Source: Epibacterium ulvae
GTDB lineage: Bacteria > Pseudomonadota > Alphaproteobacteria > Rhodobacterales > Rhodobacteraceae
Assembly (NCBI RefSeq): GCF_900102795.1
Contig: NZ_FMWG01000001.1
Location: 124,001-188,000 of the forward strand
Length of the DNA: 64,000 nt
Reading direction: 5' to 3'
A program made the translations under genes and the position numbers. Positions 4,521 through 24,123 of this stretch are shown here, piece after piece; the first letter of the stretch is position 1; the number at the start of each line of letters is the position of its first letter. The notes beneath the pieces were generated by a model. That model was not told where the DNA came from and searched no databases. It worked only from the letters and a program-made list of their open reading frames with translations.

Positions 4521-4598
4521 AGCTGGTATGATTGGTTTCCCTAGTTGGCGAACCAGTCTATCTTGCTGCGAAACCTGAACACGCGCAGAGGCTTTTTT

Positions 4599-5402: not shown

Positions 5403-5417
5403 TCAGGACTTTTGACT

Positions 5418-6311
5418 ATGACTGCCGAGATGAAAACTGAAAAAGCCCGTGCTGCCGCGTGGTTTCGCACCCTTCGTGATGAGATTGTCGCTTGTTTTGA
5501 AGCGCTAGAGCAAAGCCATAGTGAAGGGCCCTTTTCGTCAGAAACAGCAGGTCAGTTTGAGGTCAGCGAAACGACACGCAGTTCAGCTGATGGGTCAGAC
5601 GCTGGTGGCGGACTGATGAGCGTGATGCGTGGTGGTCGTGTGTTTGAAAAGGTCGGTGTCAATATCTCTGAAGTGTATGGCACCCTTGGGGAACGTGCGC
5701 AAAATGCTATGGCGGCACGTAAGGGGTTACCTGGCATGAAAGAGGATCCGCGGTTTTGGGCCTCTGGTATCTCGCTCGTTGCCCATATGCGAAACCCGCA
5801 TGTTCCAGCCGTTCACATGAACACACGTATGTTCTGGACGCCGCATGCATGGTGGTTTGGGGGCGGATCTGATCTGAACCCCTGTCTTGAATATAAAGAA
5901 GATACAGCGCATTTTCATGCCACCCAAAAGACACAGCTTGATCCACATGGAAGTGAATTTTATCCGCGTTTGAAAGACTGGGCGGATGAATATTTCTATA
6001 TCCCGCACCGAAACCGGGCGCGTGGTGTTGGCGGCATCTTTATGGATGATCAGAATTCAGGTGATTGGGAGGCGGATTTTGCTCTGACGCAAGATATTGG
6101 CCGTGCCTTTTTACCTGCTTTTGCGCCACTCGTTGAAAAACGGCGTGTGCAAACTTTCGGAGAAGCTGAAAAAGACGCACAGCTCATCCATCGTGGTCTC
6201 TACGCCGAGTATAATTTGGTGTATGATCGTGGGACAAAATTTGGATTGGAAACAGGTCATGACGCCAATGCCGTCTTGATGAGTCTGCCGCCGCTTGCGA
6301 AGTGGGTTTGA
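5418..6311 (+). CDS. hemF: Oxygen-dependent coproporphyrinogen III oxidase
   Basis: HemF converts coproporphyrinogen III to protoporphyrinogen IX using O2, in the cytoplasm. The 297-residue length matches the family, and the signatures HVPAVHMNTRMFW, GGGSDLNPC and EYNLVYDRGTKFGLETG are present. The ATG at 5418 follows AGGA nine bases upstream; an in-frame TTG at 5412 is possible. Its stop is only 3 bases from the stop of the convergent Lrp-type gene, with no terminator between them. hemC and hemE are found about 20 kb away. Confidence 0.95.
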   Translation: MTAEMKTEKARAAAWFRTLRDEIVACFEALEQSHSEGPFSSETAGQFEVSETTRSSADGSDAGGGLMSVMRGGRVFEKVGVNISEVYGTLGERAQNAMAARKGLPGMKEDPRFWASGISLVAHMRNPHVPAVHMNTRMFWTPHAWWFGGGSDLNPCLEYKEDTAHFHATQKTQLDPHGSEFYPRLKDWADEYFYIPHRNRARGVGGIFMDDQNSGDWEADFALTQDIGRAFLPAFAPLVEKRRVQTFGEAEKDAQLIHRGLYAEYNLVYDRGTKFGLETGHDANAVLMSLPPLAKWV

Positions 6312-9120: not shown

Positions 9121-10182
9121 TCAGCGCAAACGCTGTTCACTTGCTGCATCAAAGAAATATGCATCTGCATCGTTGAAGTCCAAGCTTACGGCAGAGCCTT
9201 CGGCGATGGCGCCATCATCGCGGGTTTCCACGATAACCTTCTCGCCTGTTGGCGTGGTCAGGTAGTCATAAGAAACGCCTCCCAGACGTTCGCGCAGTTC
9301 CAGACGAATCGGGCTGTCCGCTTCGGCCACTTGCAGGTGTTGTGGGCGCACGCCAACCAGCACTTTGCTGCCGTTTGCAGGCAAGGAAACTGATGTGGAC
9401 ACGGCGCGACCACCCAAGGCGGGAACAGTTACAGCACCATTTTCAACCGTGCCCTCTAGGAAGTTCATTGCCGGGGAGCCAATGAAACCAGCCACGAATT
9501 TATTGTCTGGATCTTTGTAGAGATCCATCGGGCTGCCAACCTGTTCGATATGGCCTGCACGCAGAACGACGATTTTATCCGCTAGGGTCATCGCTTCAAC
9601 CTGATCGTGGGTCACATAGATCATGGTTGCGCCAATTTCTTTGTGCAGGCGCGCGATTTCGACGCGCATGTCGACCCGTAGTTCTGCGTCAAGGTTTGAC
9701 AAAGGTTCGTCAAACAGGAACACCTCAGGACCGCGAACAATTGCACGTCCGATCGCCACACGTTGACGTTGACCACCAGACATCGCTTTGGGTTTGCGCT
9801 TTAGGTATTGGTCAAGCTTCAGAATACGGCTGGCTTCTGCGACCTTTTCCTTGATCTCTTCTTTTGGATGGCCATTCATTTTCAGGCCAAATCCCATGTT
9901 CTCTTCCACAGTCATATGCGGATACAGGGCATAGGTCTGGAACACCATTGCAACGCCACGCTCCGAAGGATCCATATGAGTCACGTCGCGCGTGCCAATG
10001 TTAATCTGGCCATCTGTGGTCTCTTCCAGACCTGCAATCATGCGCAGCAGGGTAGACTTACCACAGCCCGAAGGGCCGACAAAGACGCAGAATTCGCCGT
10101 CTTCAATTTCGAGATCAATGTTATGGATAACTTGCACGTCTCCATATTTCTTGACCGCTTTTGATAGTGTGACTCCAGTCAT
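9121..10182 (-). CDS. Sugar ABC transporter ATP-binding protein (MalK/UgpC family)
   Basis: A 353-residue CUT1-type ATPase. Walker A is GPSGCGKST (36-44), the signature is MSGGQRQRVAIGRA, and Walker B is VFLFDEPLSNLDAELR. The last 120 residues form the TOBE/OB regulatory extension of MalK-like proteins. AAGGAGG sits just before the ATG at 10182, which decides the start against a 50-residue longer open frame. It is encoded apart from the binding protein and permeases (11.1-14.3 kb) but must power them, as no other ATPase of this type is nearby. It lies 19 bases after the IclR-type regulator gene and is probably cotranscribed with it. Confidence 0.93.
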   Translation of the reverse strand: MTGVTLSKAVKKYGDVQVIHNIDLEIEDGEFCVFVGPSGCGKSTLLRMIAGLEETTDGQINIGTRDVTHMDPSERGVAMVFQTYALYPHMTVEENMGFGLKMNGHPKEEIKEKVAEASRILKLDQYLKRKPKAMSGGQRQRVAIGRAIVRGPEVFLFDEPLSNLDAELRVDMRVEIARLHKEIGATMIYVTHDQVEAMTLADKIVVLRAGHIEQVGSPMDLYKDPDNKFVAGFIGSPAMNFLEGTVENGAVTVPALGGRAVSTSVSLPANGSKVLVGVRPQHLQVAEADSPIRLELRERLGGVSYDYLTTPTGEKVIVETRDDGAIAEGSAVSLDFNDADAYFFDAASEQRLR

Positions 10183-10201
10183 TGCATTCCTCCTTGGGGG
10201 G

Positions 10202-10993
10202 TCAGCATGGGAACTGCCATGTTTCGGCAGCTGATGCGATTTCGGCAGCGGTTTCCTGCAGGACAGGGCGGTGAACCAGAAGCCCGTCCAGTGTCTGGCG
10301 CTGCGTTGATGTGGTAATGGAGAGTGCGCCAATCACGCGCCCCCCTTCAGACAGGATCGGTGCGGCAATGCAAATGATCCCGGGTTCATGTTCTTCGCGG
10401 TCAAAGGCAACACCGTCGCGTTTGATTTCTGCGAGTTCGGCCAGCAGTGCGTCTGGCGAGGCTAGGGTTGTAGGGGTATGTGCGAGAAAGGCTTGGCGTC
10501 GGATCGCGTCGGCCTGGGTGTTTTCATCGAGAAAGGCCATCATGGCTTTGCCAACACCGGTGCAAAAGCCAGGGCCAACTTTACCGGCCTGGCTGAACAT
10601 TTCGATCGGTTGTGATGCTGAGCGTTTATCAACATATAAGACCTGACCACGATCAAGCTGGGCCAGGTGAATGGTTTCGCCAACTTGTGTGGCCAATGCG
10701 TCTATATATGGGCGCGCAATGGGTGCAAGGGAACTTTGACGCCAAGCTGCGTGTGCAAGACGGACCAAACGAAGTCCGGGGGCATAGGTTTGACGATCTT
10801 CATCGTAAGTAAGCATCCCTTGATTCGCCAAGGTTTGCACAAGCCGATACAAAGTCGCCTTGGGGTGTTCAGAGGCTGCAAGCAATTCTCCAAACCGGAC
10901 GGGACGGCCAAATTGGGCCACCTGATCCAATATATTCAACGCTTTGCCGACGGTTCCGTCAGCGCCGCGTTGCGACGACTGTATTGCTGTCAT
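10202..10993 (-). CDS. IclR family transcriptional regulator
   Basis: A 263-residue regulator. Residues about 10-75 form the winged helix-turn-helix (VGKALNILDQVAQFG, then the ATLYRLVQTLANQGML recognition region). The rest is an IclR effector-binding domain (GEPGIICIAAPI-like region, here EHEPGIICIAAPILSEGG). GGGAGG precedes the ATG at 10993. The gene is divergent from the galactoside operon, with an extended palindrome between them, so it very likely represses that operon until a galactoside catabolite (sugar acid or 2-keto-3-deoxy sugar acid) binds. The effector is inferred from the neighbours. Confidence 0.92.
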   Translation of the reverse strand: MTAIQSSQRGADGTVGKALNILDQVAQFGRPVRFGELLAASEHPKATLYRLVQTLANQGMLTYDEDRQTYAPGLRLVRLAHAAWRQSSLAPIARPYIDALATQVGETIHLAQLDRGQVLYVDKRSASQPIEMFSQAGKVGPGFCTGVGKAMMAFLDENTQADAIRRQAFLAHTPTTLASPDALLAELAEIKRDGVAFDREEHEPGIICIAAPILSEGGRVIGALSITTSTQRQTLDGLLVHRPVLQETAAEIASAAETWQFPC

Positions 10994-11037
10994 CACGTTC
11001 CTCCCTGATGTTTCGCAGTGCGGCTACTATGAAACTG

Positions 11038-11135: not shown

Positions 11136-12389
11136 ATGAAAATGTTTAAAGCGACAGCTGCAGCCCTGGCGCTGTCGGTTGGGTTTGGTGCGGGCGCACA
11201 GGCGGAAGGTCTGTCCGGCACTCTGAAAATCTTCTCTGACATGTCGAACCCGGCGCCTCGCGCTGTGATGGAAGGCATGGTTGAGCGTTTCGGCGCATTG
11301 CATCCTGATCTGGATATTGAGCTGACCGTTATTGATCGCGAAGCGTATAAAACGCAGATCCGTAACTTCTTGACTGCAAACGCGCCAGACGTCGCAAACT
11401 GGTACGCTGCAAACCGCATGAAGCCTTACGTTGATGCAGGTCTTTTTGAAGACATCTCAGATGTTTGGGCAGATCCGGCACTGGCAGATCTCGCATCAAC
11501 CAAGGGTGCGATGACGTTGGATGGTAAGCAGTGGGGCGTGCCTTACACTTACTATCAGTGGGGCGTTTACTATCGCGCAGACATCTATAACGAGTTGGGT
11601 CTGAGCGAGCCAGCAAGCTTTGATGAGATGAAGTCTAACTGTCAGGCGATTCTTGATTCTGGTCGTAAGTGCTACACCATTGGCACCAAATTCCTTTGGA
11701 CCGCAGGTGGTTGGTTTGATTACCTGAACATGCGCACGAACGGGTATGACTACCACGCGAAGCTGACTGGCGGCGAAATCCCTTGGACTGATGACGGCGT
11801 AAAAGCGACCTTTGCAAACTGGCGCGAACTGATCGACATGGGTGCCTTTGTTGACAACCACACCGCCTACAGCTGGCAAGAATCACTGCCCTTCATTGTG
11901 TCCGGTGATGCGGCTGCGATCCTAAAGGGTAACTTTGCAGTTCCACCTCTGCGTGAAGCAGGCCTGGATGACAGCAAACTGGACTTCTATCAGTTCCCTG
12001 CAATCACCGAAGGTGTTGCGTTGTCCGAGGACGCGCCAACCGATACTTTCCACATTCCAGCAAAAGCTGAGAACAAAGAGGCGGCGCGTGAGTTCCTGAA
12101 GTTTGTTGTGTCTGCGGACAACCAAACTTTGATCAACAACGGCGATAACCTAGGCCAGTTGCCAGTGAACGCAAAATCATCAGTTGATGATGACAAGTTC
12201 CTGAAAGAAGGTTTCGAAATGCTGTCTGCAAACAGCCCAGGCGGTGTTGCACAGTTCTTTGATCGTGATGCACCAGCAGAAATGGCAAAAGTTGCAATGG
12301 AAGGCTTCCAAGAGTTCATGGTGAAACCAGATAATCTGGACAAGATCCTTGCGCGCTTGGACCGTGCTGCGAAGCGCATCTACAAGTAA
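11136..12389 (+). CDS. Sugar ABC transporter substrate-binding protein (CUT1)
   Basis: A 417-residue periplasmic binding protein of the extracellular solute-binding family 1. Residues 1-23 are a signal peptide ending in GAGAQA. LSGTLKIFSDMSNPAP and the later NAPDVANWYAANRMKPYVDAGLFEDIS are typical of oligosaccharide-binding members. GGGAGG precedes the ATG. It is the first gene of the galactoside operon, so the likely ligands are alpha- and beta-galactosides. A strong hairpin directly after it probably keeps its expression above that of the permeases. Confidence 0.9.
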   Translation: MKMFKATAAALALSVGFGAGAQAEGLSGTLKIFSDMSNPAPRAVMEGMVERFGALHPDLDIELTVIDREAYKTQIRNFLTANAPDVANWYAANRMKPYVDAGLFEDISDVWADPALADLASTKGAMTLDGKQWGVPYTYYQWGVYYRADIYNELGLSEPASFDEMKSNCQAILDSGRKCYTIGTKFLWTAGGWFDYLNMRTNGYDYHAKLTGGEIPWTDDGVKATFANWRELIDMGAFVDNHTAYSWQESLPFIVSGDAAAILKGNFAVPPLREAGLDDSKLDFYQFPAITEGVALSEDAPTDTFHIPAKAENKEAAREFLKFVVSADNQTLINNGDNLGQLPVNAKSSVDDDKFLKEGFEMLSANSPGGVAQFFDRDAPAEMAKVAMEGFQEFMVKPDNLDKILARLDRAAKRIYK

Positions 12390-12403
12390 CTTTCTCACAT
12401 GAC

Positions 12404-12437
12404 GGGTGCAGCACGTGTATGTGCTGCACCCTTTTTT
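12404..12437 (+). terminator. Hairpin with U-tract inside the galactoside operon
   Basis: An 11-bp perfect GC-rich stem (12404-12414 with 12421-12431), 6-base loop, then six T (12432-12437). It lies between the binding-protein gene and the first permease gene. It has the form of an intrinsic terminator, but the downstream genes are plainly part of the same operon, so partial termination and 3' protection of the binding-protein message are likely. Confidence 0.8.
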
Positions 12438-12502
12438 GCCACTTCCTGAACGGTCTGGTGAAGCCGACCGACTAAGGAATGACTCTCAATCGGAGATTGA
12501 CC

Positions 12503-13420
12503 ATGTCTTCATCCACCAAGGCCACGACAAAGTCGTCCTGGTATAAAAGGAATGAGATCGCGGTCACCCCATGGCTGTTCCTCGCACCGGGTGTGATCTT
12601 CTTTCTGTTCTATGTGATTTTCCCGATCTTTCAGTCGATCAGCGTGTCCTTTTACGAATGGGACGGTCTAAGCGACCCCGAATGGATCGGTTTGGGCAAC
12701 TATGAAGAGTTGTATTGGGACGATGCGTTCTACGTCTCGCTGCGCAACAACTTGATCTGGCTGGTTTTATACCTGCTGGCGATTCCTGCGGGATTGTTTA
12801 TCGCGTTGTTCCTCAACCAGACGGTAATGGGCATCCGCCTCTATAAGTCACTGTTTTTCTTCCCGTTTGTGATCTCTCAAGTTGTCGTGGGCCTTGTTTT
12901 TACATGGTTTTATGACCCGACATTTGGCTTGTTGAATGAGTTCATCGGCATTTTCGGGCTCGGTCCGATCAATGTGCTCGGGGACGAACGCTATGTAACT
13001 TACGGCATTATTGCTGCAGGCATCTGGCCGCAAACAGCTTATTGTATGATTCTGTATCTTACTGGTTTGAACGCTGTTGACCCTGAACAAATCGAAGCAG
13101 CGCGCCTTGATGGTGCGAAAGGCTGGCGCATGTTGTGGCACGTGATTGTTCCGCAGTTGAAACCTGCCACGTTTATTGCATTTGTTGTGACGATCATTGG
13201 CGCGTTGCGTTCATTCGACCTGATCTCAATCATGACCAATGGCGGGCCCTTTGGTGAAAGCCGCGTGCTGTCCTTTTACATGTTTGAAGTGGCTCTGTCC
13301 GAATATGGCTTCCGCATGGGCTATGGTGCGTCGATTGCGGTTGTGCTGTTCCTGATCATGCTCTTCTTCATCGCGTACTTCCTGTACTCCATGTACCAAG
13401 ACGACAAAGGGGGTCGTTAA
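12503..13420 (+). CDS. Sugar ABC transporter permease (MalF-like, CUT1)
   Basis: A 305-residue inner-membrane permease with about six helices. The cytoplasmic EAA loop that docks on the ATPase reads EAARLDGAKGWRMLWHVIVP. The ATG at 12503 has GGAG eight bases upstream; an ATG at 12479 would add eight residues with a poorly spaced AAGGA. It forms the membrane channel with the next gene, which follows after one base. Confidence 0.92.
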   Translation: MSSSTKATTKSSWYKRNEIAVTPWLFLAPGVIFFLFYVIFPIFQSISVSFYEWDGLSDPEWIGLGNYEELYWDDAFYVSLRNNLIWLVLYLLAIPAGLFIALFLNQTVMGIRLYKSLFFFPFVISQVVVGLVFTWFYDPTFGLLNEFIGIFGLGPINVLGDERYVTYGIIAAGIWPQTAYCMILYLTGLNAVDPEQIEAARLDGAKGWRMLWHVIVPQLKPATFIAFVVTIIGALRSFDLISIMTNGGPFGESRVLSFYMFEVALSEYGFRMGYGASIAVVLFLIMLFFIAYFLYSMYQDDKGGR

Positions 13421-13421
13421 G

Positions 13422-14270
13422 ATGTTTCCCACGCCTATCGAAAAATCCCCCCGCAGTTGGCAATTGACGTATCAGGCTCTTTTGCCTGTGGCGCTTGTAA
13501 TGTGGCTGCTGCCCTTGATTGCGGTTGCCTTGTTCTCAATCAAACCCGATGCAGACTTCACCACCGGAAACTATTGGGGACTGCCCAGCTCGTTCAATTT
13601 CGTGGAGAATTATGGCAAGGTTTTCTTTGCCTCTGACATGCCACGCTATTTGCTCAACTCGGTGTTTATTACCGTTCCAACTGTTGTTGGCTGTGTCATC
13701 CTCAGCTCGATGACTGGCTTTGCCCTTGGCGTTTACAAGTTCAAGGCGAATCTCTGGGTGTTCTTCATGTTTGTTGCGGGCAACTTTGTCCCGTTTCAGA
13801 TCTTGATGGTGCCTGTGCGTGATCTGACTTTGGATTTGGGATTGTACAACACCAAAACAGGGTTGGTTCTGTTCCATATCGCGTTCCAAACCGGCTTTTG
13901 TACTCTGTTCATGCGCAACTTTATCCGCGCACTGCCCTTTGATTTGATCGAAGTCGCACGTGTGGAAGGTGTCGCAGAATGGCGCATTTTCTGGTATGTT
14001 GTTCTGCCCTTGATGAAACCTGCATTGGCTGCAATGGCCGTGTTGATCTTCACGTTCATCTGGAACGATTTCTTTTGGGCTATCGTGCTCACTCAGGGGG
14101 CTGAAAGCCAGCCCGTGACTGCAGGTATTACCAGCTTCAATGCGCAATATCGTGCAGCGTATCACCTGATGAGTGCAGGCTCGATTGTCGCCGCTTTGCC
14201 TCCGGTTGCTATGTTCTTCTTGATGCAAAAGCACTTTATCGCAGGTCTCACACTAGGAGCCGTGAAATGA
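13422..14270 (+). CDS. Sugar ABC transporter permease (MalG-like, CUT1)
   Basis: A 282-residue second permease of the importer, with six predicted helices and the EAA loop EVARVEGVAEWRIFWYVVLP. The C-terminal LTLGAVK is typical of MalG-type subunits. Its stop overlaps the start of the alpha-galactosidase gene as ATGA, showing translational coupling between uptake and hydrolysis. Confidence 0.92.
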   Translation: MFPTPIEKSPRSWQLTYQALLPVALVMWLLPLIAVALFSIKPDADFTTGNYWGLPSSFNFVENYGKVFFASDMPRYLLNSVFITVPTVVGCVILSSMTGFALGVYKFKANLWVFFMFVAGNFVPFQILMVPVRDLTLDLGLYNTKTGLVLFHIAFQTGFCTLFMRNFIRALPFDLIEVARVEGVAEWRIFWYVVLPLMKPALAAMAVLIFTFIWNDFFWAIVLTQGAESQPVTAGITSFNAQYRAAYHLMSAGSIVAALPPVAMFFLMQKHFIAGLTLGAVK

Positions 14271-16357
14271 TCCGATGCTGGCGTCTTGATGACTCACGCC
14301 AAACTCTTGTCCTGGGATCCCACAATGACCACCTCGCTGAGGTGGTCTATTGGGGCCCTAGGCTCTCTGATACTGAAAACCTGACCACGCTGTATCAAGC
14401 GCAGGTTTTGGACGTGACCGGGGGGATGCTTGATCAGAACCCCGAATTGTCTATTTGTCCTGAAGCAACACGTACATTCCCCGGTCAACCGGGACTGAAC
14501 ATACGCGATTCTGATGGCACGCCGTTGCTGCCGAAATTTTGTTTTTCGTCCGCAACCGAAGAGGATGGCGTTTTAACGCTGACCTATATCGATGATAGTA
14601 CAACCCTAACTTACACTGCCAGGTTCTCTATTGATGGGCAGACACATGTGATCGAAGCACAGGCCAGCGTTTCCTCAACGCGCCCAGTGCACTTGCATTG
14701 GCTGTCCGCCCCGGTGTTCCCGGCCCCGCAATTCTCTGATGAGATGATCGATTTCGCTGGCCGCTGGTGTGGCGAATTCCAGATGAACCGCACGCCATGG
14801 TCTGCAGGTATTCGCTACCGCAACAACCGGACTGGCCGTACCGGACATGAACATTTCCCGGGTTTGATTGTGCCCTGTCGTGGAGCGACGAACGCTACGG
14901 GCCATGCTTATGCGTTCCATTATGGATGGTCTGGTGGTCACCGTATGGTGGCCGAAGAACTACCCGATGGCCGCCGTCAGGTGCAGTTTGGGCATGCATC
15001 CCGCGTGGAAATGGCAGCTGCGACCGAATTTAAAACCGCAAAGCTATATGCGATGTTCTCAGACGATGGTCTGAATGGCTGCGCGGTTGCGTTCCAGCGC
15101 CATTTGCGGGACCGCATCGTGCAATGGCCGCAGGCGGATCGTCCCCGTCCTGTCCATTATAACTGTTGGGAAGCGGTCTATTTCAACCACAACCTACCTG
15201 AACTGAAAGATATAGCAGAACGCGCAGCAAAACTTGGTGCTGAGCGTTTTGTTCTGGATGATGGCTGGTTTGGAAACCGTGATGATGACACAACATCGCT
15301 GTCAGATTGGGAAGTCGATCCGCGCAAATATCCTGATGGGCTGACGCCGCTGATCGATCACGTTCATAGTCTGGGGATGAGCTTTGGCATCTGGTTTGAG
15401 CCAGAGATGATCAACGAAGATTCCGATATCCACCGCGCGCACCCGGATTGGGCATTGGGTGGTGAAGATCAAATTCTGGGTCGCCAGCAGAAAGCCTTGA
15501 ATATGGGCCTGCCAGAGGTTCGCGATTTTCTGTTTGACCGGATTGGCGCGGTTTTGCGGGATCACGATATTGATTACATCAAATGGGACCACAACCGCGT
15601 GTTGCCCATGCCTGATGCAGCACAAACCCGAGGCTCTTATGCGCTGATCGACCGCCTGCGTGAGGCTTTCCCAAAAGTGGAAATCGAAAGCTGTGCTTCT
15701 GGTGGCGGTCGGATCGATTTTGGCATTCTTGAGCGCACACATCGGGTGTGGCTGTCAGATTCCAATGATGCACATGAACGCTTGCGGATGCAGCATAATG
15801 CGGCAATCTTTCTACCTTCAGCTGTCACTGGTAGTCATGTAGGACCGCGTGAATGCCATACCTCAGGACGCGTGTATGACATCCGTTATCGGGCTTGGGT
15901 GGCTGCACAACGTCACATGGGTTTCGAGATGGACCCACGTGAGCTGACAGAAGACGAAGCCAAGGTGCTCACGGATGTGACCAACTGGTGGAAAGAAAAT
16001 CGCGATTGGATGAACACTGCAGACATTCTGCGGTTGGACAGTTCAGATGAAGCTGTCATTGCCGAACAACAGCTGGCGCAAAACCATGAGCGTTTTGTAG
16101 TTTTTGCCGGGAAAGCAGCAACATCAGCACAGATTGCGCCGCGTCCATTGCGACTGACCAGATTGTCGGCCGACAGTATGTACCGAGTTGAGTTGAAGAA
16201 CCGCGATGAAATCGCACCGCCAACGCTGTCGCGGGGCAACCCACTTCTTAAAACCGATCCGATGGTCGTGAGCGGCGCTTTCCTGATGAACCATGGTATT
16301 ACCCTGCCGTGGAGCTTCCCGGATCGCATGTGGGTTATTGAAGGAACCTTGGTATGA
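14267..16357 (+). CDS. Alpha-galactosidase (GH36)
   Basis: A 696-residue glycoside hydrolase family 36 enzyme that removes terminal alpha-galactose from oligosaccharides such as melibiose or raffinose. The barrel shows ERFVLDDGWFGNRDDD, the nucleophile region DYIKWDHNR and the acid/base region WLSDSNDAHERL. No signal peptide is seen, so it acts in the cytoplasm on imported sugar. It overlaps the permease gene before it and the dehydratase gene after it by 4 bases each. Its product, galactose, feeds the oxidative pathway encoded downstream. Confidence 0.92.
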   Translation: MIRCWRLDDSRQTLVLGSHNDHLAEVVYWGPRLSDTENLTTLYQAQVLDVTGGMLDQNPELSICPEATRTFPGQPGLNIRDSDGTPLLPKFCFSSATEEDGVLTLTYIDDSTTLTYTARFSIDGQTHVIEAQASVSSTRPVHLHWLSAPVFPAPQFSDEMIDFAGRWCGEFQMNRTPWSAGIRYRNNRTGRTGHEHFPGLIVPCRGATNATGHAYAFHYGWSGGHRMVAEELPDGRRQVQFGHASRVEMAAATEFKTAKLYAMFSDDGLNGCAVAFQRHLRDRIVQWPQADRPRPVHYNCWEAVYFNHNLPELKDIAERAAKLGAERFVLDDGWFGNRDDDTTSLSDWEVDPRKYPDGLTPLIDHVHSLGMSFGIWFEPEMINEDSDIHRAHPDWALGGEDQILGRQQKALNMGLPEVRDFLFDRIGAVLRDHDIDYIKWDHNRVLPMPDAAQTRGSYALIDRLREAFPKVEIESCASGGGRIDFGILERTHRVWLSDSNDAHERLRMQHNAAIFLPSAVTGSHVGPRECHTSGRVYDIRYRAWVAAQRHMGFEMDPRELTEDEAKVLTDVTNWWKENRDWMNTADILRLDSSDEAVIAEQQLAQNHERFVVFAGKAATSAQIAPRPLRLTRLSADSMYRVELKNRDEIAPPTLSRGNPLLKTDPMVVSGAFLMNHGITLPWSFPDRMWVIEGTLV

Positions 16358-18063
16358 CCAAAGAGAGACGTAACCGCAGCTGGTATGGCATGATGGATAA
16401 GGATGGTTTTATCCGTCGCTCTTGGATGAAAAATCAGGGGTTTCCTGATCATGTGTTTGATGGTCGCCCTGTTATCGGCATCTGCAACACTTGGTCTGAA
16501 CTGACCCCCTGCAACTCTGGCCTGCGGGAACTGGCCGAAGGTGTGAAACGAGGCGTGTGGGAGGCTGGAGGTTTCCCTGTGGAATTCCCAGCAATGTCTT
16601 TGGGTGAAACCCAGATGAAGCCCACAGCGATGCTGTTCCGCAACCTTTTGGCGATGGACGTCGAAGAAAGCATTCGCGCCTATGGTATGGATGGCGTGGT
16701 TCTGCTGGGCGGCTGTGACAAAACCACACCGGGCCAATTGATGGGCGCGGCTTCGGTTGATCTGCCGACCATCGTTGTGTCATCCGGTCCTATGCTGAAC
16801 GGAAAATGGAAAGGCCGCGATCTGGGCTCTGGCACGGATGTGCGCAAATTTGCGATGGACGTGAAAGCGGGGGAAATGACCCTCAAAGACTTCATGGCGA
16901 CTGAATCAGGCATGTCACGCTCCAAAGGGGTTTGCATGACCATGGGCACAGCTTCGACCATGTCGTCTCTGTCCGAGGCCATGGGGCTGTCCTTACCGAT
17001 GAACGGTTCACTCCCGGCTGTTGATGCGCGGCGTATGGCGTTGGCGCATATGACAGGCAAACGTATTGTTGAGATGGTTGAGGAAGATCTGAAGTTTTCG
17101 GATGTGATCACCAAAGAGAGCTTTGAAAATGCGATCCTTGCCAATGCGGCCTTAGGGGGATCGACCAATGCGGTGATGCATCTTCTAGCATTGGCAGGGC
17201 GTGTAGGCGTGGATCTGGGTCTGGAAGACTTTGAGATCGGCGGAGAAATTCCATTGCTTGTAAACTGCATGCCATCGGGGAAATACCTGATGGAGGATTT
17301 CTGCTATGCAGGCGGTGTTCCGGTTGTGTTGAAAGAGATCGCGCACAAATTGCGGGATGCCAACACTGTGATGGGTAAGGATATTTCCCATTATTACGAA
17401 GAGGCGGAATGCTATAACCGTGACGTCATCTATGCCTATGATGAACCGCGCAAACCGGCTGCTGGCCTGCGTGTGCTGCGTGGCAACCTTGCGCCGCGCG
17501 GTGCAATTGTAAAACCATCTGCTGCGTCAGATCACTTGCTGGAACACGAGGGCGAAGCCTATGTGTTCGAAACGATTGAAGAGCTGAAAGCAAACATCGA
17601 CCGGGATGATCTGCCAGTCGATGAAAATACTATTCTTGTTCTGAAACACTGCGGGCCCAAAGGCTATCCGGGTATGCCCGAAGTCGGGGACATGCCCGTT
17701 CCTGCAAAATTGGTGAAGCAGGGCGTGCGCGATATCGTGCGCGTGTCTGATGCGCGCATGTCTGGCACTGCCTTTGGCACTGTGATCCTGCATGTGGCAC
17801 CCGAAGCCACCGCAGGTGGTCCAATCGCGCTGGTAAAAACCGGCGATCGCATCAAAGTTTCTGCCTCTACCGGTGTTCTTGAACTCTTGGTGGATGAAGC
17901 TGAGCTGGAAGCGCGCCGCGCTGATTGGGTCGAACCCGACCCTCATTACACCCGTGGTTATGCCAAAATGTACGTCGATCACGTGCTGCAGGCTGACAAG
18001 GGTGCTGATCTTGATTTTCTGGTGGGTAAAGACACCCGCCCCGTCACACGGGAGAGCCATTGA
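16354..18063 (+). CDS. IlvD/Edd family sugar-acid dehydratase, probable D-galactonate dehydratase
   Basis: A 569-residue Fe-S dehydratase. The cluster-ligand cysteines are visible in GICNTWSELTPCNSG, GGCDKTTPGQLMG and SKGVCMTMGTAS, and the Lys in CDKTTPG is the usual magnesium-site lysine. Sequence type is closest to the L-arabinonate/galactonate dehydratases of the family rather than IlvD. Its neighbours (galactose-type dehydrogenase, lactonase, DgoK, DgoA) point to conversion of D-galactonate to 2-keto-3-deoxygalactonate. That is a different protein family from the enolase-type DgoD of E. coli. Activity on L-arabinonate or D-fuconate is also possible. Confidence 0.85.
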   Translation: MTKERRNRSWYGMMDKDGFIRRSWMKNQGFPDHVFDGRPVIGICNTWSELTPCNSGLRELAEGVKRGVWEAGGFPVEFPAMSLGETQMKPTAMLFRNLLAMDVEESIRAYGMDGVVLLGGCDKTTPGQLMGAASVDLPTIVVSSGPMLNGKWKGRDLGSGTDVRKFAMDVKAGEMTLKDFMATESGMSRSKGVCMTMGTASTMSSLSEAMGLSLPMNGSLPAVDARRMALAHMTGKRIVEMVEEDLKFSDVITKESFENAILANAALGGSTNAVMHLLALAGRVGVDLGLEDFEIGGEIPLLVNCMPSGKYLMEDFCYAGGVPVVLKEIAHKLRDANTVMGKDISHYYEEAECYNRDVIYAYDEPRKPAAGLRVLRGNLAPRGAIVKPSAASDHLLEHEGEAYVFETIEELKANIDRDDLPVDENTILVLKHCGPKGYPGMPEVGDMPVPAKLVKQGVRDIVRVSDARMSGTAFGTVILHVAPEATAGGPIALVKTGDRIKVSASTGVLELLVDEAELEARRADWVEPDPHYTRGYAKMYVDHVLQADKGADLDFLVGKDTRPVTRESH

Positions 18064-18827
18064 TGTCTGCAACATTTCATGACCTGAAAGGTAAATCCGT
18101 ATTTATCACTGGTGGCGGTTCTGGCATCGGCGCATTCTTGACCGAAGGCTTTTTGTTACAAGGGGCTAAGGTGGCTTTTGTTGGGCGTTCAGATGCTACA
18201 GAATTCTGTGATGAGATGGAGGAAAAGTACGGGGTTCGCCCTCTGTTTATCCAGTGCGACATCACGGATATTCCAGCCTTGAAAGCAGCAATGCAGCAGG
18301 CAGCAGAAGCGCACGGGGCAATAACGGCACTGGTGAATAATGCTGCGAATGACAAACGTCATGAAACCCTCGACGTCGATGAAGAGTTCTGGGATTGGTC
18401 GCAGTCGATCAATCTAAAAGCCTATTTCTTTGCCTGTCAGGAAGCTGTGAAAGGTATGAAGGAAGCAGGTGGCGGATCTATCATCAACTTTACCTCAATT
18501 TCCTACATGATGGGCAATGCGGGATATCCCGCGTATACAACCGCGAATTCCGGCATCAACGGTATGACCCGTTCACTGGCACGGGAATTTGGGCCTGATA
18601 AAATTCGCCTCAACGCGATTGCGCCCGGTTGGGTTTTAACCGACAAGCAAAAAGAACTGTGGGTTACTCCCGAAGCACTTGAAGAGCATCTGGGGCGCCA
18701 ATGCCTGAAAGACACGCTGGGCCCTGAAGACATCGTGGGCGCGACACTGTTCCTTGCGTCTGACAGCAGTAAAATGATGACGGGTCAGGCGATGGTTGTA
18801 GATGGCGGGGTAGTGGTGACAGGATGA
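18063..18827 (+). CDS. SDR sugar 1-dehydrogenase, probable galactose dehydrogenase, with catalytic Lys replaced by Asn
   Basis: A 254-residue SDR resembling galactose/arabinose 1-dehydrogenases (FHDLKGKSVFITGGGSGIG at the start). The cofactor motif TGGGSGIG (16-23), VNNAAND and Ser147 are present. The active site reads Tyr158-TTA-Asn162, so the catalytic Lys of YxxxK is Asn (codon AAT at 18546). In the operon the expected job is oxidation of galactose to galactonolactone, feeding the SMP-30 lactonase. Either this family tolerates Asn, the enzyme is impaired, or one base is wrong. The start overlaps the dehydratase stop (TGATG); the end overlaps dgoK (ATGA). Confidence 0.75.
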   Translation: MSATFHDLKGKSVFITGGGSGIGAFLTEGFLLQGAKVAFVGRSDATEFCDEMEEKYGVRPLFIQCDITDIPALKAAMQQAAEAHGAITALVNNAANDKRHETLDVDEEFWDWSQSINLKAYFFACQEAVKGMKEAGGGSIINFTSISYMMGNAGYPAYTTANSGINGMTRSLAREFGPDKIRLNAIAPGWVLTDKQKELWVTPEALEEHLGRQCLKDTLGPEDIVGATLFLASDSSKMMTGQAMVVDGGVVVTG

Positions 18828-19750
18828 CCTCTGGCCTTGATATTCCTCCAGCTTGGATTGCAGCGGATTGGGGCACCACCCAAGTGCGTGTGTGGTTGCT
18901 TGCCGCAGACGGGACCGTGCTTGCACGGCGCACATCTGACAAAGGCATGGGGCGGATTTCCCCTGATGCTTATGAAGGGGTTCTGTTAGAACTTATCGGA
19001 GATGCATTGCCAATTGAAGGCAAGCTGGATGTCGTGATTTGTGGCATGGCCGGCTCGCGCCAAGGTTGGTCTGAAGCGCCTTATGCCGCAACACCTTGCC
19101 CGCCGCCATCAATTGACATGGCGACTCATGTTGCCACACAAGACGCTCGGCTCAACGTGCACATATTGCCGGGGGTGAAACAGATGTCTCCGGCTGATGT
19201 GATGCGGGGGGAAGAGACGCAGATCATGGGTGTTACGGCACGAGATGCGCAGTTCGATGGGGTGATTTGCCTGCCGGGCACACATACCAAATGGGCGCAT
19301 GTCCAGGCCGGGCAGATCACTGAATTTGCCACTTTCATGAGTGGTGAATTGTTCAATGTGATCGGAGATCATTCGGTTCTGCGTCATTCTGTCGGGCGTG
19401 ATGGCTGGAATGAAACAGCCTTTAGAAACGCCTGCGTCAAAGCCATCGAAAACCCAAATACGCTTATGCAGTCGCTGTTTGGATTGCGCGCTGAGGCTTT
19501 GGTGGCAGACCTATCCCCTGAGGCTGCACGTGCGACCTTGTCTGGCTTGTTGCTTGGGGCGGAATTGACGGCCGCACAAAGCTACTGGGACAGTTCAGAT
19601 GTGACGATTGTTGGTGAAAACGCGCTGTCACAGGCCTATGCTGCGGCCTTGGCCACCCAAGGTAAAACGCCTCGCATCGTTGATGCGGAAGAAACAACTT
19701 TAAATGGCCTGAAGGCCGCCCACTCCCATTTGCAAGAGAGCCAATCATGA
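18824..19750 (+). CDS. dgoK: 2-dehydro-3-deoxygalactonokinase
   Basis: A 308-residue DgoK-family kinase that phosphorylates 2-keto-3-deoxygalactonate at O6. The N-terminal phosphate-binding ADWGTTQVRVWLL and later LPGTHTKWAHV and FMSGELF are the family signatures. It overlaps its neighbours by 4 bases on both sides, in pathway order before the aldolase gene. Confidence 0.93.
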   Translation: MTSGLDIPPAWIAADWGTTQVRVWLLAADGTVLARRTSDKGMGRISPDAYEGVLLELIGDALPIEGKLDVVICGMAGSRQGWSEAPYAATPCPPPSIDMATHVATQDARLNVHILPGVKQMSPADVMRGEETQIMGVTARDAQFDGVICLPGTHTKWAHVQAGQITEFATFMSGELFNVIGDHSVLRHSVGRDGWNETAFRNACVKAIENPNTLMQSLFGLRAEALVADLSPEAARATLSGLLLGAELTAAQSYWDSSDVTIVGENALSQAYAAALATQGKTPRIVDAEETTLNGLKAAHSHLQESQS

Positions 19751-20355
19751 GCCGCGAAATCATTGCCATTCTGCGTGGTATCACACCTGACGAAGCAATT
19801 GGCGTAACCGAAGCGCTGATTGACGCTGGGATTTCCAAGATCGAAGTACCACTGAATTCGCCTGAACCCTTTGACAGCATTTCTAAGATGCTTGAACTGG
19901 CAGGTGAAAACGCGCTTGTGGGTGCGGGTACTGTGCTGACTGTTGAAAATGTCGCGCGTCTGAAACAGATCGGTGCGCAGATGGTGATTTCACCGGACGC
20001 AAACCCGGATGTGATCATGGCCACCAAAGCTTCGGGCATGTTGTCTTACCCCGGTGTATTTACACCGACGGAATGTTTTTCTGCGCTGCGCCACGGCGCA
20101 GATGGGTTGAAATTCTTCCCCGCTTTCAAATTTGGGATCGATGGATTTAATGCGGTGAAAGCAGTGTTGCCAAAAGAGACCAAAACCTATGCGGTTGGCG
20201 GTGTCGGGCCTGCGAATTTTGCCGATTGGCAGGCTGCCGGTATCACAGGGTTTGGTATTGGTTCTAACCTCTACAAACAGGGTCGAAGTGTTGCAGATAT
20301 TGCATCAATCGCAAAAGACATGGTTGCGGCCTATGACGAGGCCTTTGGCGCATGA
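19747..20355 (+). CDS. dgoA: 2-dehydro-3-deoxy-6-phosphogalactonate aldolase
   Basis: A 202-residue class I aldolase of the KDPG/KDPGal family that yields pyruvate and glyceraldehyde 3-phosphate. Key parts are AILRGITPDEA, the base Glu in ISKIEVPLNSPEP, GAGTVLT, and the Schiff-base Lys in GADGLKFFPA. PLNSP is the KDPGal-type rather than KDPG-type (TLRTP) variant, which supports galactonate as the substrate chain. Overlaps of 4 bases on both sides. Confidence 0.93.
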   Translation: MSREIIAILRGITPDEAIGVTEALIDAGISKIEVPLNSPEPFDSISKMLELAGENALVGAGTVLTVENVARLKQIGAQMVISPDANPDVIMATKASGMLSYPGVFTPTECFSALRHGADGLKFFPAFKFGIDGFNAVKAVLPKETKTYAVGGVGPANFADWQAAGITGFGIGSNLYKQGRSVADIASIAKDMVAAYDEAFGA

Positions 20356-21194
20356 TCCAAACAATCAGCTCTACGGCATGTACACTGGGGGAGGGGGCTT
20401 TTTGGCATCCCTCCCTTCAGCAATTTTTCTGGTTCGATATTCTAGGTAAGCGGTTTTATACGCTGCAGGACGGGGAAGAGCGACACTGGCAGTTTGACGA
20501 ATGCGTCTCAGCGGTTGGTTGGATTGATGATAGTCGCTTCCTGCTTGCTTCGGCCACTGCGCTCTGGGAGTTTAATATCGAAACCGGCGAGCAGAGCTTT
20601 GTTGTCGGGCTTGAGGCTGACAATGTTGAAACACGGTCAAATGATGGGCGTGCGGACCCTTGGGGTGGGTTCTGGATTGGAACCATGGGTTATAACGCAG
20701 AACCCGGCGCTGGTGCCATCTACCGCTATTATCACGGTGAATTGCGTACGGTTGTGCCAGATGTGACGATTTCTAATGCGATTTGTTTCGCCCCAGATCA
20801 ATCTTGTGCGTACTACACAGATACCGTGACCGGTAAAATCATGCGCCAGCCACTAGATGCTGAGGATGGTTGGCCAATTGGCAAGGCTGAGCTGTTTGTT
20901 GATCTGTCCGCTGAAGATTTCGGCCCGGACGGTGCTGTTGTCGATGCGGATGGCAACCTATGGAATGCACAGTGGGGCGCATCGCGTGTGGCCTGCTATA
21001 GTCCTGCTGGTGAATTCCTGCGCGCCGTGGCGGTGCCTACGCCGCAGGCGTCATGCCCTGCTTTTGGCGGTGCAGACCTTGCGACGCTGTATGTAACCAC
21101 CGCCGCTGATGGCGGATTGCCTGCGCCTGCAGGTCAGACCTTTGCCATCGCCGATGTGGCGTGTGGTCAAAAAGAACATCAAGTCAAACTCTAA
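20352..21194 (+). CDS. SMP-30/gluconolactonase family protein, probable galactonolactonase
   Basis: A 280-residue six-bladed propeller lactonase. The metal-binding Glu is in TLGEGAFWHP, the Asn in ISNAICFAPD, and the Asp in FGPDGAVVDADGN. It would open the galactonolactone made by the SDR dehydrogenase. ATGA overlap with dgoA shows coupling. The specific sugar lactone is inferred from the operon. Confidence 0.88.
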   Translation: MIQTISSTACTLGEGAFWHPSLQQFFWFDILGKRFYTLQDGEERHWQFDECVSAVGWIDDSRFLLASATALWEFNIETGEQSFVVGLEADNVETRSNDGRADPWGGFWIGTMGYNAEPGAGAIYRYYHGELRTVVPDVTISNAICFAPDQSCAYYTDTVTGKIMRQPLDAEDGWPIGKAELFVDLSAEDFGPDGAVVDADGNLWNAQWGASRVACYSPAGEFLRAVAVPTPQASCPAFGGADLATLYVTTAADGGLPAPAGQTFAIADVACGQKEHQVKL

Positions 21195-21213: not shown

Positions 21214-23127
21214 ATGCTCCGGACCCTTGGCACTTGCTATTATCCCGAACATTGGCCTGAAGATATCTGGGCCGAAGATGCACGTCGCATGGTGGAGGCT
21301 GGCTTGACATGGGTTCGGATCGGTGAATTTGCTTGGTCCAGACTAGAACCCAGTCCCGGTGATCTGCAATTTGAATGGCTGGACCGTGCGATTGAGGTGT
21401 TGGGACAGGCAGGTCTTAAGGTCGTGCTTGGTACACCAACAGCGACACCACCGCGCTGGATGGCGGATCGACATCCAGACATGTTTGCTGTGGATGATCA
21501 GGGTCGCCCACGTGGGTTTGGATCACGCAGGCACTATTGCTTTAGCCACAAAGGGTATTTTGCTGAAAGCCAGCGTATCACCCGTTTGTTTGCCGAGCGC
21601 TTTGGGAAAAATCCGCATGTTGCGGCTTGGCAGACTGACAATGAATACGGCTGCCATGATACGATCATAAGCTATTCTGAGGCGGCACGTGATGGGTTTC
21701 GCACTTGGCTTCAGGTGCAATTTAATGATGATATCGCAGCGCTGAATGCGGCGTGGGGTAATGTTTTCTGGTCAATGGAATATCGCGCCTTTGACGAGAT
21801 TGCGCTCCCAAATCTCACAGTGACAGAGCCAAACCCAGCGCATGTTCATGCGTTCCGCAGATTCTCGTCTGATCAGGTTGTGGCATTTAACCGCGCGCAG
21901 GTTGAGATCATCAAAGACCATTCAAGCGCGCCGATCTCGCATAATTACATGGGCCGGATCACTGATTTTGATCATTTCAAAACAGGCGATGATCTGGAAA
22001 TTGCCACATGGGACAGCTATCCTTTGGGCTTCCTTGAAGATCGCGTTGGAGCGTCTCCAGAACAGCAGCGTGCTTATGCGCGCCAAGGTGATCCAGATTT
22101 TCAGGCGCTGCATCATGATCTTTACCGCGCTGTTGGCAAAGGTCGCTGGTGGGTGATGGAACAACAGCCCGGTCCGGTCAATTGGGCGCCTTATAACCCT
22201 GCGCCTTTATCTGGTATGGTACGGCTGTGGAGCTGGGAAGCCTTTGCCCACGGCGCCGAAGCAGTGTGTTATTTCCGCTGGCGACAAGCGCCTTTTGCCC
22301 AAGAGCAATTGCATGCGGGCATGCTGCGTCCCGATAGCAAAGATGCGCCTGCCATGGCCGAGGCAATGCAGGTTGCAGCTGAATTGAAAGATACGCCAGA
22401 TGTGCAACCTGCACAGGCACCTGTCGCCTTGATGTTTGACTATGATGCAGATTGGGCCTGGGCAACACAGCCACAGGGACAGGGGCTTAGCTATTTTGGT
22501 CTGATCTTTGATGTTTATCGTGCGCTGCGTCGTGCAGGTCTTAGCGTGGATATTGTGCGCCCCGAAACCCGCGATTTTGCGGGATATAAAATGGTCCTTG
22601 TTCCTGGCATGATGCATATGCCTGATGATCTGAAACAGGCGCTAGCCGCTTCGCAGGCACAGGTGATTTACGGGCCACGCAGTGCTGCACGGGATGCGAG
22701 CTTTAATATCCCAAATCCCTTACCACCAGCGTTGCCGGGTTTGGATGTAACTGTGTCCCGGCTTGAAACGATCCGTCCGGACATGCCGCGTCCGCTTAAG
22801 GGGGGGGGTGCGGCCATTCATTATGTCGAAGAGCTAGAAGGGACAGGTGAACCCATTTTGCGCACCAACGCCGGTGAGGTGATTGCGATGCGCGATGGTC
22901 ATAAGATCTATTGCGGTGCCTGGTTGGATGATGACGGATTTGGCATGTTGTTGCGCCAGCTCGCAATCGAGGCCGGATTGACAGTGCGCGATCTGCCCGA
23001 AGGTATCCGCGTGCGCCAGACCGCAACCGAAGAGTTCTGGTTTAATCACACCGCGGCCCCAGTAAAGACAGAAGTTGGCCTATTGCCTGCTGCAGGTGTT
23101 TTGCGGCGCCCGCGTCCGGCCTGCTGA
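21214..23127 (+). CDS. Beta-galactosidase (GH42)
   Basis: A 637-residue glycoside hydrolase family 42 enzyme. It starts in the classic way (LGTCYYPEHWPEDIW); the acid/base Glu lies in WQTDNEYGCHDT and the nucleophile Glu in VMEQQPGPVNW. No signal peptide. GAGGG precedes the ATG at 21214; the open frame extends upstream into the lactonase gene but without support. It adds beta-galactosides to the substrate range of the locus. A run of nine G (22800-22808) lies within the coding frame near the start of the C-terminal part. Confidence 0.93.
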   Translation: MLRTLGTCYYPEHWPEDIWAEDARRMVEAGLTWVRIGEFAWSRLEPSPGDLQFEWLDRAIEVLGQAGLKVVLGTPTATPPRWMADRHPDMFAVDDQGRPRGFGSRRHYCFSHKGYFAESQRITRLFAERFGKNPHVAAWQTDNEYGCHDTIISYSEAARDGFRTWLQVQFNDDIAALNAAWGNVFWSMEYRAFDEIALPNLTVTEPNPAHVHAFRRFSSDQVVAFNRAQVEIIKDHSSAPISHNYMGRITDFDHFKTGDDLEIATWDSYPLGFLEDRVGASPEQQRAYARQGDPDFQALHHDLYRAVGKGRWWVMEQQPGPVNWAPYNPAPLSGMVRLWSWEAFAHGAEAVCYFRWRQAPFAQEQLHAGMLRPDSKDAPAMAEAMQVAAELKDTPDVQPAQAPVALMFDYDADWAWATQPQGQGLSYFGLIFDVYRALRRAGLSVDIVRPETRDFAGYKMVLVPGMMHMPDDLKQALAASQAQVIYGPRSAARDASFNIPNPLPPALPGLDVTVSRLETIRPDMPRPLKGGGAAIHYVEELEGTGEPILRTNAGEVIAMRDGHKIYCGAWLDDDGFGMLLRQLAIEAGLTVRDLPEGIRVRQTATEEFWFNHTAAPVKTEVGLLPAAGVLRRPRPAC

Positions 23128-23145: not shown

Positions 23146-24123
23146 ATGCCTGTTCAGACTGTTGCAACTGCGCCTGATGGTTCTGATGTTCATGAGGTCT
23201 CGCTTCAGAATGATCAGATGTCTGCACGCCTTTTGACCTTTGGTGCAAGCCTGCGTGATTTGCGACTGGAAGGGATCGAGCATCCGCTGGTGTTGGGGTT
23301 TGATGCGGTGGAGGATTATTTCACGCGCGCGGCTTATCTTGGACCGATTGTCGGACCGGTTGCCAACCGTATCCGAGGCGGGTGTTTACCTGTTGGTGGA
23401 CAGACTCTGCAGCTTGATCAGAACGAACAGGGCGCAAACACGCTACATGGTGGGCGTTTGGGCTGTGCTATGCTCAATTGGCAATTGGAAGACGCGGATG
23501 AAACAGCTGCGACTTTTGCGCTGACACTCCCAGATGGGCATATGGGATTTCCCGGTCCCATTACGATCAAAGCAAGATATAATATTCATGGGGCAGGGTT
23601 AGAGCTGACGCTGGCGGCTACTTCTGAAGTTGCAACGGTGTGCACACTTGCGCCACATCCTTATTTCAATCTGGATGGGAGCACTACGATTGAACATCAT
23701 CGCTTGATGGTTCACGCGGATCAGCGCTTGCCTCTGATTGGTGGCTTGCCGTCAGGCGCGCCGGTTCGGGTCGCAAAAACATCATATGATCTGCGCACTC
23801 CGCAGCCCGTTCCATTGGGGCTTGATGATCACTTCTGCCTGTCGGACGGTCGCACTCTGATGCGCCCGATCGCCTCTCTTGAGGCTGGTAACCTGCGGAT
23901 GGATGTGCAGAGCACCGAAGCTGGTTTGCAGATCTATGACGCGGGCGCGATGGATCTGCCCGGTATAGGCCTTGACGGGCGCAGTTATGGTCCGCGTGCA
24001 GGGGTCGCGTTGGAGCCGCACGCGTGGGTCGATGCCCCCAACCAACCCTGGCGCGCGCAGGTGGATTTATTGCCCGACGAACCGGCGCTTGCACACACGC
24101 GGTTTGAATTCACAAAACTCTGA
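23146..24123 (+). CDS. Aldose 1-epimerase (galactose mutarotase type)
   Basis: A 325-residue mutarotase that interconverts alpha and beta anomers of galactose released by the two galactosidases. Catalytic His is in LAPHPYFNLDG and the catalytic Glu in VALEPHAWVDAPNQP. AAAGGAG precedes the ATG. It is the last gene of the galactoside operon; no hairpin terminator is visible in the 100 bases that follow. Confidence 0.92.
   Translation: MPVQTVATAPDGSDVHEVSLQNDQMSARLLTFGASLRDLRLEGIEHPLVLGFDAVEDYFTRAAYLGPIVGPVANRIRGGCLPVGGQTLQLDQNEQGANTLHGGRLGCAMLNWQLEDADETAATFALTLPDGHMGFPGPITIKARYNIHGAGLELTLAATSEVATVCTLAPHPYFNLDGSTTIEHHRLMVHADQRLPLIGGLPSGAPVRVAKTSYDLRTPQPVPLGLDDHFCLSDGRTLMRPIASLEAGNLRMDVQSTEAGLQIYDAGAMDLPGIGLDGRSYGPRAGVALEPHAWVDAPNQPWRAQVDLLPDEPALAHTRFEFTKL

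Follow-up and report, generated by a model that had tools for sequence, protein, structure and literature searches.

How an enzyme might oxidize a sugar without the lysine of its active site is the question raised by one gene in a 64,000-nucleotide stretch of Epibacterium ulvae DNA (NZ_FMWG01000001.1, positions 124,001 to 188,000, forward strand). We call the whole stretch the window and count positions from its first nucleotide. The gene at 18063..18827 on the forward strand encodes a short-chain dehydrogenase/reductase (SDR) of the classical type, a predicted D-galactose 1-dehydrogenase, in which the active-site residues are Asn117, Ser145, Tyr158, and Asn162. Classical SDRs make up one of the largest enzyme families, and the YxxxK lysine counts among their defining features; SDRs that stand alone and lack it are easily mistaken for inactive. 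We think it probable that the window SDR is a working sugar dehydrogenase. It would oxidize D-galactose at C1 to galactonolactone in the first step of the DeLey-Doudoroff pathway, probably with NADP+, and Asn162 together with Tyr121 would serve in place of the lysine arrangement.

Asparagine 162 and its partner tyrosine 121

Translation of the gene gives a protein of 254 residues with a Rossmann fold and a TGxxxGxG cofactor motif, which reads TGGGSGIG at residues 16 to 23. Both PF13561 and PF00106 match above their cutoffs, and the nearest solved structure is 7wwx (46% identity). The protein is also related to the D-xylose 1-dehydrogenase XylB (NCBIfam NF053674) but scores 263 bits against a cutoff of 400 and so falls outside that family. 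Three residues of the SDR tetrad are in place, namely, Asn117 (18411..18413), the catalytic Ser145 (18495..18497), and the catalytic Tyr158 (18534..18536). The fourth is not. As the original prediction stated, the motif reads Y158-T-T-A-N162, and the codon in the place of lysine is AAT (18546..18548). Elsewhere in the same genome there are 29 other SDR-like matches; among the 27 that aligned over the site, 26 have lysine and 1 has serine.

Asn162 is conserved in close relatives. A scan of contigs found 416 relatives of the window SDR, and when the closest ones were aligned at the lysine column, as had been proposed, Asn was present in 80 of 80 (the best 80 of the 416, at 71 to 96% identity). 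Codons at the position were AAT (106), AAC (33), AAG (32), and AAA (13), with no others, in 184 matches above 150 bits that were not dereplicated. The nearest relative (L013, 96% identity) uses AAC, and thus Asn162 has been retained through a synonymous change. The ratio of nonsynonymous to synonymous substitution rates (dN/dS) was 0.007 to 0.048 in six of nine close pairs, values that are rough because dS was saturated, and the other three pairs gave no value.

A wider family was pooled from class, family, and phylum samples, further fetched sequences, and some plasmid records. Merging of identical sequences reduced 248 entries to 229, and eight rescued rows, trimmed at the C-terminal stop, brought the set to 237 unique relatives. 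Two matches broken by a stop were left out, L182 (58% identity; Asn with Tyr121) and L266 (66%). Residue 162 was Asn in 164 of the 237 and Lys in 73, with no third residue, and Asn117, Ser145, and Tyr158 were invariant in all 237. Asp97, Arg99, and Gln196 likewise never varied among the 164 Asn forms, nor among those Lys forms (35) that share at least 50% identity with the window protein. Asn forms reach down to 54% identity, all 38 sequences below 50% are Lys forms, and the closest Lys form, L153, is 69% identical. Outside the class, three genomes in a phylum sample of 398 had matches, and all were Lys forms (L210, L253, and L255).

Two of these records are odd in where they occur. L088 (JAHVJD010000006.1) is titled Nocardioides marinus and carries an Asn-form SDR at 76% identity amid mostly Rhodobacterales sequences; it is a mislabelled or contaminated assembly or else a recent transfer. 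The stop-interrupted L266 (Ensifer sp. PDNC004 plasmid, 5001-5504) is an SDR fragment, 73% identical over 66% of the length, that sits beside arsenic-resistance genes in a stretch without an annotated galactose gene, and it is a stray remnant.

Asn162 does not travel alone. The column with the strongest coupling to 162 is 121, one helix turn past the catalytic Asn117, where the window SDR has tyrosine (TAT, 18423..18425). Of the 164 Asn forms, 163 have Tyr121, and of the 73 Lys forms, 2 do. None of the 35 Lys forms with at least 50% identity has it; the residue there is His (19), Gln (12), Ser (2), Phe (1), or Leu (1). Mutual information with 162 was 0.67 for column 121 and 0.41 for the next column when these 35 Lys forms were used, and 0.83 and 0.67, respectively, when all Lys forms were used. 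We conclude that Asn162 and Tyr121 travel together, which the original reading of this site had missed. That the partner is tyrosine exactly, and never phenylalanine, in all but one of the Asn forms argues that the hydroxyl of residue 121 matters. In the Asn forms there is also a tendency toward polar residues at column 166, one turn past 162 (Asn in 100 and Thr in 54 of 164). Lysine in homologs had been named as the result that would overturn the case for an unusual site. Lysine does occur, but only in distant or nested homologs, nearly all of which also differ at 121.

The two columns have also switched repeatedly. A tree of 161 of the 237 rows, built with columns 121 and 162 removed, requires a minimum of 8 changes for column 162 and 10 for column 121. 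When all branches were used irrespective of support, path-disjoint pairing gave eight pairs, and 121 switched with 162 in all eight; the runner-up column averaged 5.1 of 8, and for the others the net score averaged 0.4. Well-supported branches of the same tree gave five pairs, and over 200 pairings residue 121 changed the same way in 4.9 of them and never the opposite way. A single Asn clade was rejected by the approximately unbiased (AU) test on 56 hand-picked rows (p-AU, 0.009). Eleven Lys forms are nested within the Asn clade, and the support of the branches concerned is mixed. Parsimony is blind to gain versus loss, and the nested Lys forms suggest one early Lys-to-Asn change followed by several returns.

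The galactose operon and its genome

The SDR gene is embedded in a forward-strand run of galactose genes. It sits between a gene for an IlvD/Edd-type sugar-acid dehydratase, predicted to be galactonate dehydratase (16354..18063), and one for DgoK, 2-dehydro-3-deoxygalactonokinase (18824..19750; PF05035). The run begins with a sugar ATP-binding cassette (ABC) transporter (11136..14270), made up of a weakly matched binding protein (11136-12389) and two permeases named by analogy with annotated loci (12479-13420 and 13422-14270), followed by a GH36 alpha-galactosidase (14267..16357; PF02065, PF16875, and PF16874). Past dgoK are an open reading frame (ORF) over the cutoff of NF006600 (19747..20355), a lactonase of the SMP-30/gluconolactonase type (20352..21194; PF08450), a GH42 beta-galactosidase with an inferred start (21214..23127; PF02449 and PF08532), and a GalM-like aldose 1-epimerase (23146..24123; TIGR02636, below cutoff). 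On the reverse strand are a MalK-type sugar ABC transporter ATPase (9121..10332) and an IclR-type regulator, an ORF named by analogy with annotated loci (10202..10996). DgoA is also encoded in the run. A lactonase, a dehydratase, DgoK, and DgoA beside a dehydrogenase make up a DeLey-Doudoroff operon, and the SDR is the only dehydrogenase of the locus, as had been noted, since no second one was found among the operon ORFs.

The neighborhood is shared by both forms of the enzyme. Among loci with enough flanking sequence, dgoK directly follows the SDR gene in 145 of 158 Asn forms and 10 of 11 nested Lys forms. Of the 24 remaining Lys forms with at least 50% identity, 16 have it next to the gene, as do 2 of 38 below 50%. 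The nested Lys forms L153 and L156 have the same array as many Asn forms, in the order IclR, substrate-binding protein, GH36, SDR, dgoK, dgoA, and GH42. With the same operon neighbors on both sides, the Asn and Lys active sites appear to be interchangeable for one function.

The SDR-dgoK-lactonase cluster is plasmid borne in L191-L193, L195, L268, and L269; the SDR is the Asn form in the three Rhodobacterales read and the Lys form in the three Phyllobacterium read. In L269 (Sulfitobacter sp. S190) the galactose cluster lies on a 73-kb plasmid where the Asn-form SDR is whole and dgoK is annotated as two short pieces, an apparent decay of the kinase gene in a gene table that is incomplete.

Whether another enzyme performs the step, as the original prediction allowed, was asked of the whole genome, which is 99.74% complete. 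Curated models found neither galactokinase (galK) nor galactose-1-phosphate uridylyltransferase (galT) in it; as controls, the same two models matched in 12 and 5 of 14 genomes and exceeded their cutoffs in 8 and 3. Galactokinase was also absent at an E value of 1e-20 from 57 of 57 SDR-bearing relatives (50 with the Asn form and 7 with the Lys form). Eight Gfo/Idh/MocA matches are present; two family libraries were searched with seven of them and a structure-sequence library with three. None of the seven resembles a galactose/arabinose 1-dehydrogenase, in a comparison that left out L277 (under cutoff) and used no reference galactose dehydrogenase as the query. One is an inositol dehydrogenase above cutoff, and some others resemble levoglucosan dehydrogenase. 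Finally, the window's genome has no second SDR match at an E value of 1e-40 or better, the next best being 7.7e-32. Thus, an alternative first-step enzyme finds no support in this genome, although the 29 other SDR-like matches remain.

Proposed active site and competing explanations

How the site would work can be sketched from known SDRs. In these, the proton relay runs from an Asn-bound water through the lysine and the ribose 2'-OH to the tyrosine (PMC10864336; also PMC4635001), and a kink at the catalytic Asn offers a backbone carbonyl to the water network (PMC8007833). The predicted model of the window SDR (mean predicted local distance difference test [pLDDT] score, 96.2; best PDB match, template modeling [TM] score of 0.96) has an unbroken helix from 107 to 135, and that of the Lys form L153 (mean pLDDT, 94.8) has the same helix broken right after the catalytic Asn. 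The contrast between the modeled helices fits, weakly, a replacement of the lysine-water network. We propose that Tyr158 would stay the base and that Asn162 would hydrogen-bond the nicotinamide ribose. Tyr121, in putative contact with residue 162, would fill the room otherwise taken by the lysine side chain with its bound water and would take over the proton path, which would run from Tyr158 through the ribose 2'-OH and Tyr121 to solvent. An anomeric hydroxyl is more acidic than an ordinary alcohol, and thus loss of the lysine's help with the tyrosine pKa might be affordable.

If this is right, there would be two catalytic arrangements of the classical SDR, interchangeable in evolution, and the second would consist of Asn-Ser-Tyr-Asn and a tyrosine located one turn past the first Asn. 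In it, a neutral phenol would do the work of the lysine ammonium, clamping the cofactor and relaying the proton, and orthologs in one kind of operon would have switched between the two arrangements several times. For this more general claim we consider the chances evenly balanced.

The cofactor appears to have its own history. At the end of strand beta-2 the window SDR reads G41-R42-S43 (18183-18191; Arg42 codon, 18186..18188), and a basic residue 42 occurs in 96% of Asn forms and in 23% of the Lys forms that have at least 50% identity. The majority of Asn forms read G/Q-R-S at 41 to 43, and most Lys relatives have an acidic-hydrophobic pair, D-I or similar. NADP-specific SDRs carry a basic and no acidic residue there, and the motif suggests NADP as the cofactor. 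A cofactor switch was considered as the full cause of Asn162 and rejected, because Asp41 persists in some early-branching Asn forms and QRS or GRS is found in most of the nested Lys forms. The pattern suggests a separate NAD-to-NADP switch that did not coincide with the Lys/Asn switches.

A number of points weigh against a working lysine-less dehydrogenase or against the strength of the pairing on which it leans. Lysine is held to be essential in the classical SDRs that have been studied. Its roles there are described in PMC4635001 and PMC10864336. The pairing has exceptions: L036 has Asn162 with Cys121, and L106 and L255, both below 50% identity, have lysine with Tyr121. Related sequences are not independent events, branch support for the switches is moderate, and the sign test on five supported pairs (median p, 0.0625) cannot reach 0.05. 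A more careful tree had 7 changes at 162 and 8 at 121 but only three supported pairs, which went the same way, and its 56 rows were hand-picked around the switches after the first tree was known. One predicted model per form is little evidence. Moreover, 24 of 106 family genomes with a match have at least two SDR matches at 1e-40, and there another, often Lys-type, relative could share the work.

The alternative that survives best keeps the dehydrogenase functional and denies Tyr121 a role in chemistry. The tyrosine would only pack against the shorter Asn, with no part in proton transfer, and Asn would be tolerated because the anomeric hydroxyl is easily deprotonated. Packing alone could explain the pairing at 121; in the nested Lys forms that residue is variously His, Gln, Phe, or Leu, so that the lysine has no single chemical partner; and one Asn form manages with cysteine. 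The near-perfect preference for tyrosine over phenylalanine stands on the other side, since the hydroxyl seems to matter. We regard packing alone as possible but doubtful.

The enzyme might instead be an active oxidoreductase whose main substrate is not D-galactose at C1 but another galactoside-derived sugar or another carbon. Operon context is indirect, and substrates differ among the nearest characterized relatives (L-arabinose and sulfoquinovose). The operon nevertheless encodes the remaining DeLey-Doudoroff steps, and the search for a different first-step enzyme recognized none; we consider a different substrate unlikely.

Could the protein be a dead or degenerate SDR kept for another role, with galactose oxidized by another dehydrogenase? 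Loss of the lysine is a usual sign of a pseudoenzyme. The genome holds the 29 other SDR-like matches, and two of its Gfo/Idh/MocA proteins score weakly, at 93 and 113 bits, with a haloarchaeal model of D-xylose 1-dehydrogenase whose cutoff is 350. What such decay looks like may be seen in the same window. A second SDR, encoded at 4545-5402 on the forward strand next to a gene that we take from its sequence to encode HemF (5412-6311), aligns with serine at the lysine position. Of 61 family genomes, 58 have a match to it at 1e-40, with identity of at least 52% in 52 of these, and across 30 loci its lysine position holds T (11), S (8), C (6), A (3), N (1), or H (1), and the tyrosine is replaced in five. 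This SDR looks like a conserved noncatalytic protein. A variable lysine position with loss of the tyrosine is the pattern of lost catalysis, and the galactose-locus SDR shows the opposite, with only Asn or Lys at 162, a tetrad otherwise fixed in 237 of 237, and the same dgoK neighbor in 10 of 11 nested Lys forms. We consider a dead enzyme improbable.

A swap of lysine and asparagine, as in the fatty acid synthase ketoreductase domains of the "complex" SDRs, would place a lysine at position 117. YxxxN is the motif of the complex SDRs (PMC3144213), lysine and asparagine are described as switched in the ketoreductase domains (PMC4635001), and the window SDR has the motif. The catalytic-Asn position does not have the lysine, however; Asn at 117 in all 237 relatives excludes the switch in this family, and PF08659 (KR) scores 48 bits against 189 for PF13561. 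A lysine or arginine relocated elsewhere was also rejected: when columns with a basic residue in 80% or more of the Asn forms were compared with the Lys forms of at least 50% identity, a clear drop was seen only at column 42 and, weakly, at column 174 (100% versus 60%). Lys119 was rejected as a substitute because the column is basic in 99% of Asn forms and 94% of those Lys forms, and two Asn forms have Thr or Asp. We judge a swap of the complex-SDR kind very improbable. Finally, a sequencing error or recent mutation, for which AAT is one base away from a lysine codon, has a negligible chance of being correct, given that all 80 other loci compared, the best 80 of 416, have Asn, with two synonymous codons.

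Of the three readings first offered, a wrong or recently mutated base is therefore refuted, another enzyme lacks support here, and a subfamily of sugar dehydrogenases that works with asparagine fares best. The last draws its support from conservation, covariation, operon context, and the lack of a recognized alternative, with catalysis predicted.

Significance and relation to known systems

A family of galactose SDRs without a residue thought to be essential, nearly always with a second change, suggests a second way to build a very common active site. The whole lysine-less subfamily is under strong selection, in the only galactose route recognized in its genome. Because both forms exist as close orthologs with a named partner residue, the role of the lysine could be tested by a two-residue exchange.

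The literature consulted, mostly titles and the starts of abstracts with thin coverage of subscription journals, held no apparent account of a stand-alone lysine-less SDR with a compensating tyrosine, and novelty is thus unproven. The YxxxN motif itself is already known from complex SDRs; the partner residue and the switching history are what this analysis adds to the original reading. In the animal fatty acid synthase ketoreductase domains, Asn also occupies the lysine position (PMC3144213 and PMC10864336), but lysine and asparagine are described as having traded places there (PMC4635001), whereas the window SDR keeps Asn117, gains no lysine, and is a stand-alone protein. Another divergent SDR lost the tyrosine and not the lysine, according to PMC11614110.

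The closest characterized relative is the L-arabinose 1-dehydrogenase of Herbaspirillum huttiense (7wwx), which, from organism and function, we infer to be the enzyme of PMC6336799. The 46% identity holds over the full length, the TM score is 0.96, and N-D-x-R-H and R-Q/K-Q-like stretches are shared, but in 7wwx residue 162 is Lys, residue 121 is Ser, and strand beta-2 is followed by Asp-Ile. According to PMC6336799, the H. huttiense enzyme is NAD dependent, unlike the window SDR with its predicted use of NADP. D-Galactose is a good substrate for it too, the kcat/Km for L-arabinose being only 2.9-fold that for D-galactose. The sulfoquinovose 1-dehydrogenase of Pseudomonas putida (9gwu-9gww) has the same fold, about 41% identity, and the same sugar 1-dehydrogenase chemistry but acts on another sugar and has Lys at 162 and Ala at 121.

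Sugar 1-dehydrogenases of the Gfo/Idh/MocA type belong to an unrelated protein family, and SMc00588 of the Sinorhizobium meliloti gal locus is presumably one of them. Others, Re GDH and Ab ADH, perform the same kind of first step in the oxidative pathways (PMC9795676 and PMC3687685). A similar operon is galactose cluster 1 of Roseobacter litoralis (RLO149_c015710-c015810), in which a "short chain dehydrogenase" (c015750) stands between RafA and DgoK in Table 3 of PMC3141670; unlike in the window, no dehydratase is listed in that cluster. R. litoralis grows on galactose, and the authors of that paper assigned neither a complete pathway nor the SDR as galactose dehydrogenase. The window SDR may also put a name to the unassigned galactose dehydrogenase of this marine, Roseobacter-type galactose cluster.

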